The notes beneath the pieces were generated by a model that worked only from the letters and a program-made list of their open reading frames with translations, was not told where the DNA came from and did no database searches. From the NCBI GenBank assembly GCA_003158255.1, contig PMIH01000030.1:1-34725 (forward strand): a DNA stretch of 34,725 bases. The letters run 5' to 3'. Positions 23,122 through 26,488 of this stretch are shown piece by piece (positions within the stretch are counted from its first letter, which is position 1; every line of letters begins with the position of its first letter). This DNA is from Rhodocyclaceae bacterium. GTDB lineage: Bacteria; Pseudomonadota; Gammaproteobacteria; Burkholderiales; Rhodocyclaceae. Made by a program: the position numbers and the translations under genes.

Positions 23122-24531
23122 CTAGGCTGCCGTCACCGGCATTCCCGCCGCCTTCGCGCGCGCCCACGGTGCCGGTTTGCGCACGGCTTCCCAGACGGGA
23201 TTGCCGATGGTCAGCGCAAGTTGCTTGGCAAGTTCCGGCATGCCCGCGTAACCGGCGTAGGCGAATTCGCGTTCCTGGTTGATGTCGAGGAACGGAATCC
23301 GTGACTTGAGCGCCATGTAGAGGTTGCGGCCGCCGGCGATGAGGATGTCGGCGCGCAGGTCCTTGTAGGCGCCGAGCAGCGCCTTCGGGCTGCCGTCTTC
23401 GATCATGTTCGCGTCCGGGCCCATAATCTCGCGGATGCGCGCCTTGTCTTCCTCGGTCGATTTCTTGGTGCCGGTCGCCACCACTTCCATGCCCAAGTCT
23501 TGCAGCGCGGAGACGACGGACCACGACTTCACGCCGCCCGTGTAGAGCAGCACGCGCTTGCCACGCAAACGCTGCCGCCAGGGTTCGAGCGCGGCATTGG
23601 CTTTCGCTTCCTCGCGCGCGATGAGCACCTCGGTGCGCGCGGTGAGGTCGGGGTCGTTCAATAGCGCAGCGAAGTCGCGCAGCGCCTGCGACATGTCGCG
23701 TACGCCGTAGAAGCTGCCTTCGAAGAATGGCACGCCGTAGCTTTCCTTCAGCTTGCGTGCGACGTTGAGCAGAGCCTTGGCGCAAACCACCATGGTCGCC
23801 TCGGCGCGGTGCATGGTCTGCACTTCGCGGAAGCGCGCGTCGCCGGAAAGCGTCGAAAGGATGCGCAGGCCGAGTTCGTCGAACAGCGGCGCAACGTGGA
23901 AGAATTCGCCGGCGATGTTGTATTCGCCGATCAGGTTGATGTCGTGCACCTTGATGCCCGGCCGCTGGGCGAATTCCGGCACTGGGTCCGGCTCGCGCGT
24001 GCCGATCACGTACTTGAACATCGCCTCGCCACCGAGACGGTTGCCAAGGTTCTTGGTGCCGTAGAAGCCGGCCGCATCGATGGGCACCACGGGCACGCCG
24101 AAGCGTTCCGCCGCCGCCTTGCACACGGCTTCCATGTCGTCGCCGACCAGCGCGGTGACGCAGGTGGCGTACACAAATACCGCCGCGGGGGCATGGTCAT
24201 CGATCGCTTGCTTGATAGCGTGGAAGAGGCGCTTTTCACCGCGGCCCATGATCACGTCCTGCTCGGTGAGGTCGGTGGTCATGCCGATCTTGAACAGCGT
24301 CGGCCCGGTGGTGCGCGTGCCGCGGTTGTCCCAGGAACTACCGGCACAGGCGATCGGTCCATGCACGATATGGGCGACGTCGGCGATCGGCAACAGCGCA
24401 ATCTGTGCGCCGTCGAAGGCGCAACCGCCGGCCGTGGCGCCGGGCTTGGGCTTGGCGCAGCCGGATTTCTCCTTCGCGTTGTGCGCGCAGGCGGGTTCGT
24501 TGAGCAGGGCTTGGATGTCGGTGGCTTTCAT
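23122..24531 (-). CDS. nifE: Nitrogenase FeMo-cofactor scaffold protein NifE
   Basis: [77 protein letters not shown]..; [21 protein letters not shown] upstream of ATG 24531. Confidence 0.95.
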
Positions 24532-24557
24532 GGGCAGGTCCTCTTTGCCTATCGGTT

Positions 24558-24573
24558 TGCAATCGCCATGCCA
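24558..24573 (-). promoter_or_regulatory. Sigma54 (-24/-12) promoter of nifE
   Basis: Minus strand TGGCATGGCGATTGCA versus consensus TGGCACG-N4-TTGCW: one mismatch, correct spacing. Confidence 0.85.
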
Positions 24574-24606
24574 AGGCCAGGTACTTGAACTTGCAGCGAT
24601 ATTGCT

Positions 24607-24622
24607 TGTCGCAAACGCGACA
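24607..24622. promoter_or_regulatory. NifA upstream activator sequence (TGT-N10-ACA)
   Basis: TGT-CGCAAACGCG-ACA, inside the larger palindrome TTGTCGC-AAAC-GCGACAA (24606-24623); about 68 bp upstream of the predicted nifE TSS. Confidence 0.78.
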
Positions 24623-24636
24623 ATGGCCGCGACTGG

Positions 24637-24678
24637 TTGACACTCTGCTTTCCAGAGTTGATACTCTGCGCCACAGAG
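24637..24678 (+). promoter_or_regulatory. Tandem 21-bp operator-like repeats overlapping a sigma70 promoter
   Basis: TTGACACTCTGCTTTCCAGAG / TTGATACTCTGCGCCACAGAG; each contains a CTCTG-N5-CAGAG dyad; TTGACA-N17-GATACT reads into the serine hydrolase gene. Confidence 0.65.
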
Positions 24679-24700: not shown

Positions 24701-26488
24701 ATGAAATCACGCCATCTGATTGCCGCCGCCAGCGTCGCGCTCCTGCTCGCCGCCTGTGGTGGCGCCCCGCCGCGCCCCGACAGCGTCGCGCGAAACGACT
24801 ACGACGGCATCAAAACCTACGTCAGCCAATTGATCCGCCACGAAATGAACGAGAGCCAAGTCACCGGCCTGAGCATCGCCCTGGTGGACGACCAACGTAT
24901 CGTCTGGGCCGAGGGCTTCGGCTACGCCGACAAGGAACGCAAACAGCCGGCCAGCGCGCAAACGATCTATCGCGTCGGCTCGATTTCGAAGCTGTTCACC
25001 GCCACCGCGGCCATGCAGTTGGCAGAGCAGAAGAAGCTGGACATCGACCGGCCGCTGCAAAATTACCTGCCGGAGTTTTCCATCCAGTCGCGCTTTCCGC
25101 CGACGGCAGCGATCACGCCGAGAAACCTGATGACCCATCACTCGGGTCTGCCGCGCGATTTCGCCAAGGGAATGTTCACTAAGAACCCGGTCCCCTTCAC
25201 CCAACTGGTGCAGGAACTGAAAAGCAGCGATGCGGCCTATCCGCCGAACCTGACTTTTTCCTATTCGAACGTCGGCGTGACGCTGCTCGGCCATGCGATC
25301 CAGAACGTCAGCGGCGTGCCGTTTGCCGACTACATCCAGCGTTCGGTGCTGCAACCGCTGGGAATGAAGGACGCCACCATGGAGCCCGGCCCGGCCCGCT
25401 CAGAACTCATGTCCAAGGCCTACCGCAGAGGCGAACTTGCCGAAGAACTGCCGCTGCGCGACGTTCCCGCTGGCGGGCTGAATACCAGCGTCGTCGACCT
25501 CAGCCACTTCCTGTCGATGGTCTTCGCCGACGGCCGCACCGGCACGACTCAAGTGCTTCGCCCGGAATCGGTTGCCGAGATGCTGAGGCCACAGAACACC
25601 GAAGTGCCACTCGACCTGAATTTCCACAACGGCCTGGGCTGGATGCTCAGCACACTCGGTAGCTCGACCATCGAGAACGCCGGACCGGTCGCGCACCACG
25701 CGGGCGCCATGCTCTACTTCCATTCCCAGATGTACGCGCTGCCCGAGCACAAACTTGGCGTGATCGTGCTCGCCAACTCGGGCACAGCACGCCGTGTGGT
25801 CGACCATGTCGCCACCGAGACCCTGGCGCTGGCGCTCGAAGCCAAGAGCGGCATCAAGCAGCCGAAACACGCGAAGGTTCCGGCGGCCGATCCAGCCTGG
25901 CCGACCGAACAACTCCAGCCCTACGTCGGCGAGTACACCACCATCGCCGGCTTCGCCCGAATTAGCCTCGACGGCAACCGCCTGCGCGCCGACGCCTTCG
26001 GCCGCAGTTTCGATCTCGTTCCGCGCAGCGATGGGCAGCTGGGCGTCGAGTATTCGCTCCTCGGGCTGTTTCACATCGATCTCGGCACCCTGGGCGCCAT
26101 CGGCTTTTCGCGGCGCTCCGTCGCCGGCCATGAAGTGCTCGTCGCCAGAGCCGGTAGCCAGGAAATGCTGGTCGGCGAACGCGTCCGACCGCCGGCCGAT
26201 CTGGGACGCTGGCGGCAACGCCTCGGCACATCGGTCATCACCAACGCCGGCGACGATCACACCTTCGTCGATGGCATCGCGTTGATCGAGGACCACGGCT
26301 TTCTGCTGGCCGAGTTGAAAATGACCGACGGCCCCACCAGCCGCATTCCGTTGCAGATCATCTCCGACAACGAAGCGGTGATGCTCGGCCCGCTGGCCGA
26401 TGGCGGCGGCACGCTGCGTTGCGCGCAAACCAGCGACGGCGAACGGTGCGTCATCGCAGGCTATACGCTCAAGCGAGTTGCCGACTGA
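24701..26488 (+). CDS. Beta-lactamase-like serine hydrolase lipoprotein
   Basis: [21 protein letters not shown] lipobox; SxxK (VGSISKLFT), YxN (FSYSNVG), HxG-like (HHAGA). Confidence 0.9.

Follow-up and report, generated by a model that had tools for sequence, protein, structure and literature searches.

Here, we propose that nifE has a NifA-dependent sigma54 promoter in the 169-bp gap that separates it from a divergently transcribed serine-hydrolase gene, a reading to which we assign a probability of roughly 0.93. The predicted promoter is a standard nitrogen-fixation switch. What is unusual is that the partner gene nifN, which normally adjoins nifE, sits elsewhere behind a switch of the same kind of its own.

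The window, by which we mean the whole stretch of DNA that was analysed (34,725 nucleotides), is the first 34.7 kb of the 87.5-kb contig C292. This contig belongs to a draft, evidently metagenome-assembled genome (G000; 3.45 Mb, 325 contigs, 85% complete) whose nearest named relatives are unclassified Rhodocyclales/Rhodocyclaceae MAGs. Elsewhere in this genome, C210 bears nifDK, C273 bears nifU, nifN, a NifX-associated gene and fdxN, C83 bears nifB and pieces of NifA, and C96 bears nifV, while a V-nitrogenase cluster occupies ~46-65 kb of C292, outside the window. RpoN is encoded on C3 (464.7 bits). NifA (C83:20654-22088; L032) is found as two frames around an undetermined base, with ~44 profile residues absent and the C-terminal HTH present. 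Since the break in the gene coincides with undetermined sequence, we rejected a pseudogene; the break more probably reflects a gap in the assembly than damage to NifA itself. The features around the nifE start are as follows.

23122 to 24531, minus strand: nifE coding sequence, 469 amino acids plus stop, matching profile TIGR01283, with its ATG at 24531
24539 to 24544, minus strand: ribosome-binding site AGAGGA, read directly, 7 nt before the nifE ATG
24573 to 24558, minus strand: -24/-12 (sigma54) promoter TGGCATGGCGATTGCA, predicted start 24547, conserved in the genus and in relatives
24578 to 24590, minus strand: IHF-like site GTTCAAGTACCTG, weak at 6 of 9 consensus letters, located between the UAS and the -24 element
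24606 to 24623, no strand assigned: predicted NifA upstream activator sequence (UAS), the 18-bp palindrome TTGTCGCAAACGCGACAA, with its TGT-N10-ACA core at 24607-24622
24637 to 24665, plus strand: TTGACA-N17-GATACT, a sigma70-type promoter that faces away from nifE towards the serine-hydrolase gene at 24701 and plays no part in nifE control

On the minus strand, the region ahead of nifE reads ATTGTCGCGTTTGCGACAAG ... TGGCATGGCGATTGCA ... AAAGAGGACCTGCCC-ATG. The sequence-only reading had described a sigma54 site with one mismatch to TGGCACG-N4-TTGCW and, about 68 bp upstream of its predicted start, TGT-N10-ACA inside an 18-bp palindrome; direct reading confirms both. The sigma54 element begins 42 bp ahead of the ATG, contains the GG-N10-GC core at -24/-12, and has no mismatch to the more permissive TGGCAYR-N4-TTGCW. 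The start at 24547 is predicted from the GC at -13/-12 (24560/24559) and gives a predicted leader of 16 nt. The palindrome, which reads TTGTCGCGTTTGCGACAA on the minus strand, has arms (TTGTCGC/GCGACAA) that pair over 7 bp per side around AAAC, and its centre lies 67.5 bp upstream of the predicted start. Working NifA sites usually lie ~80-150 bp upstream of the start, though this is not a strict criterion; the nifE site, at about -68, is nearer than that range, and those of the relatives are mostly at about -78. An IHF site between the UAS and the -24 element is common, but not universal, in NifA/sigma54 promoters. Against the 6 of 9 letters at nifE, the nifU and nifB promoters match the IHF consensus at 9 of 9 between their two elements, and a role for the site at nifE can only be inferred. 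Neither promoter element is rare in the window alone, where chance would give 1.15 sigma54 matches (with at most one mismatch) and 3.4 matches to the UAS; the case therefore rests on context, that is, on their combination and conservation.

Conservation was assessed in 81 nifE upstream regions of up to 350 bp, comprising the window and 80 related loci from one-per-species genomes (NifE 79-94% identical), with chance counts from first-order Markov resampling. TGT-N10-ACA was present in all 81 regions (3.9 expected) and GGC-N7-TTGC in 72 (4.6 expected), counts that are non-independent trials because the loci are mutually related. The sigma54/UAS pair before nifE is not a product of chance. The combined site reads TTGTCG-N2-TTTGC-N-ACAA, in either orientation. 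Four genus members have nifE (G000, G001, G003, and G005); the TGT-to-TGG distance is 49 bp in each, and G003 keeps it despite a different upstream sequence and a different neighbouring gene. The modal spacing among relatives is 59-60 bp (48 of 79 pairs), with 49-51 bp in seven, so that most relatives exceed the nifE spacing here by about one helical turn. We rejected strict helical phasing as a rule: distances of 49, 59-60, and 70-72 bp fit, but those of 55-56 and 87-89 bp in other clades do not, for which reason phasing is suggestive only.

The same promoter type recurs across the genome. TGGCAYR-N4-TTGCW occurs nine times without mismatch in the 3.45 Mb (the reversed control, not once). The matches at nifE, nifN, and nifU have TGT-N10-ACA upstream and that at vnfH does not; of the other five, three head flagellar-type genes, one heads a ribonucleotide-reductase-like gene, and one lies inside a trpC-like gene (identities assigned by eye). 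A looser genome search for paired sigma54 and UAS elements adds nifB, nifV, and a hemerythrin-like-domain gene, along with chance matches. The pair found at nifE also precedes nifU, nifN, nifB, and nifV, with 60 bp between the elements at nifN and nifU compared to 49 bp at nifE.

Might another enhancer-binding protein, chiefly VnfA, drive the sigma54 promoter, with nifE serving the vanadium enzyme? The vnf cluster starts ~22 kb from nifE on the same contig, and together with its VnfA-like activator it spans distances of 22-41 kb from nifE, a proximity that speaks for such control. The VnfA motif of Azotobacter vinelandii is GT(T/A)C-N6-GTAC (PMC9542535), and GTAC-N6-GAAC-type sites resembling it stand at vnfH, vnfD, and the gene at 56804, whereas no GT(T/A)C-N6-GTAC-type site was found in the 400 bp upstream of nifE. 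A NifA UAS was looked for at vnfH and vnfD, and none was found. In addition, the vnf cluster has a NifE-like and NifN-like pair of its own. Since the vnf genes have VnfA-like sites and nifE has none, we assign nifE to the NifA set although it is on the vnf contig, and consider control by VnfA very improbable.

The vnf cluster itself (L010, L011) contains genes for a VnfA-like activator and for NifE-, NifN-, and NifX-like proteins, as well as vnfH, vnfD, a vnfG-sized ORF, and vnfK; GTAC-N6-GAAC-type sites precede vnfH, vnfD, and a gene for a phosphonate-binding-type protein. Classification as anf (Fe-only) was rejected, as the alpha (997.9 bits) and beta (895.6 bits) chains pass the V-nitrogenase cut-offs. 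Inside the cluster lies a gene for a NifD-like protein (L009:1438-2817; C292:51876-53255, minus strand) that scores 237 bits to TIGR01282, well short of the cut-off (653.55), and is without a visible K partner; two long ORFs (~394 and ~771 aa) on its own strand lie just upstream of it. Near a FecCD permease, and divergent from the VnfA-like gene, is a TonB-dependent receptor gene (C292:43532-45960; L010:9533-11961) with TGGCACGGGTTTTGC and the VnfA-like palindrome GTACGGAAGTGTAC at its head; this may be a metal-uptake system under VnfA control.

The product of nifE helps build the metal cofactor of nitrogenase. Here, NifE matches TIGR01283 over its full length (676.8 bits; curated cut-off 505.1), its residues 1-457 align with solved NifE (9iao/3pdi; 836 bits), and the cluster-ligand cysteines Cys37, Cys62, Cys124, and Cys250 are all present, in the numbering of the A. 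vinelandii NifEN structure. By a counting method, dN/dS within the genus is 0.076-0.091 for nifE, compared to 0.289 for the divergent serine hydrolase. A 40-residue gap in nifE of G005 was rejected as a true loss, as it coincides with undetermined sequence. Thus, nifE is full-length and under purifying selection. These findings bear on the possibility that the sites are remnants, the inherited promoter of nifE having outlasted the split in an inactive state while VnfE, or nothing, does the work. The isolation of nifE and the existence of a second NifE-like protein are compatible with this; the dN/dS of 0.08, the retained cysteines, and the exact spacing in four species despite the differing surroundings in G003 argue against it, and we regard it as highly unlikely. 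The earlier suggestion that the isolated gene is under its own nitrogen-fixation control rather than a silent relic is instead supported, given an intact NifE, its dN/dS, the conserved sites and spacing, and the encoded RpoN and NifA, and we likewise favour a working NifA-dependent promoter. In the same reading nifE was called an orphan, which holds within the window but not for the genome, where nifN is present on C273 with its own sigma54/UAS promoter.

That the palindrome instead serves the divergent serine-hydrolase gene (24701) or its repressor, and is a mere UAS look-alike, has next to no probability: it does lie ~50-67 bp ahead of where the good sigma70-type promoter of that gene would set its start, but the UAS-sigma54 pair stays in G003, where the serine-hydrolase gene does not adjoin nifE, and is kept in relatives at large. 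The serine-hydrolase promoter is itself kept, as TTGACA-N17-AATACT, in the sister species G001 and G005. It is spanned by two 21-bp direct repeats at 24636-24677 of the window (GTTGACACTCTGCTTTCCAGA and GTTGATACTCTGCGCCACAGA, 76% alike), with similar sequence in G001 and G005, which may be an operator.

The nifE promoter is ordinary, and the repeated uncoupling of nifE and nifN is the more interesting part of these findings. On C273, nifN lies behind TGGCATGGCCATTGCA and TGTAGGCTTTCCTACA, a sigma54/UAS pair with 60 bp between its elements, and each of the four genus members has preserved it. Within the genus, the promoters of nifE and nifN have near-identical -24/-12 sequences and UAS distances one helical turn apart (49 vs 60 bp). 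In G001, nifE and nifN are on one contig and the same strand, with 22.6 kb of unrelated genes separating them; as this stretch is matched both by the right end of C273 and by the left part of C292, a similar layout is likely in G000. With the usual nifEN operon split in the genus, nifE would need its own promoter, and nifN has one for the same reason.

In many Betaproteobacteria (related loci L093-L171), 0.6 to 7.8 kb or more lie between nifE and nifN; the cultured relative Azonexus hydrophilus DSM 23864 (L168) is one with split genes. We scored loci as split where nifE is more than 250 bp from nifN or on another contig, a threshold set after the gaps had been seen. Among 68 scorable loci, a sigma54/UAS pair of its own precedes nifN in 25 of the 26 split loci and in none of the 42 joined loci. 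At least 9 to 13 changes between the split and joined states occur on the nifE tree, and in phylogenetically independent pairs the nifN promoter goes with the split in seven and against it in none (sign test 0.016). A shared inserted element between the two genes was rejected, as the intervening genes are mostly unrelated between loci. A literature search, with most subscription papers outside its coverage, found no account of nifE/nifN uncoupling. On balance, we lean towards the view that betaproteobacterial nifEN has repeatedly been split (or rejoined), that a separated nifN has its own NifA/sigma54 promoter, and that two matched promoters, instead of a shared transcript, keep the scaffold subunits in balance.

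How does this compare with known systems? Both nifE elements match the published NifA/sigma54 consensus of a TGT-N10-ACA UAS and TGGCACG-N4-TTGCW (PMC4999443), but the UAS is unusually close (-68) for a typical nif promoter and the promoter serves only nifE, not a nifEN(X) operon. NifA/RpoN-type elements are similarly placed before nifE in Azoarcus BH72, where NifA and RpoN sites are predicted and nifE is among the NifA-regulated genes (PMC3916325), and in Rhodobacter capsulatus, where nifE is NifA-regulated and a nifENX operon stands behind a NifA/RpoN promoter (PMC6925177). The R. capsulatus operon thus has the same cofactor-scaffold genes behind the same type of promoter, whereas here nifN is separated, 22.6 kb away in G001, with a NifA-type promoter of its own. 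The VnfA/sigma54 promoters of A. vinelandii share the sigma54 core and activator class, but nifE lacks the VnfA motif, and it is the vnf genes on its contig that have related motifs.

In light of these arrangements, how might the nifE promoter work? RpoN-holoenzyme would sit on the -24/-12 element and stay closed. Under nitrogen-fixing conditions, NifA would occupy the TGT-N10-ACA palindrome, contact the sigma54-polymerase across a short loop, and open the promoter, occupancy, looping, and induction all being our extrapolation. The 11-bp difference in spacing from nifN and nifU, equal to one helical turn, would keep NifA on the same face. NifE would then be made together with NifN, NifB, NifU, and NifV, each from its own matching promoter, for FeMo-cofactor assembly.

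Thus, a nif gene that stands alone in a window can still be a full member of the NifA regulon, and the nifE promoter is well supported and suited to testing. More broadly, the pattern is relevant to how NifE and NifN, together one scaffold complex, may be kept in step off separate transcripts, and to how operons may be split without loss of control.
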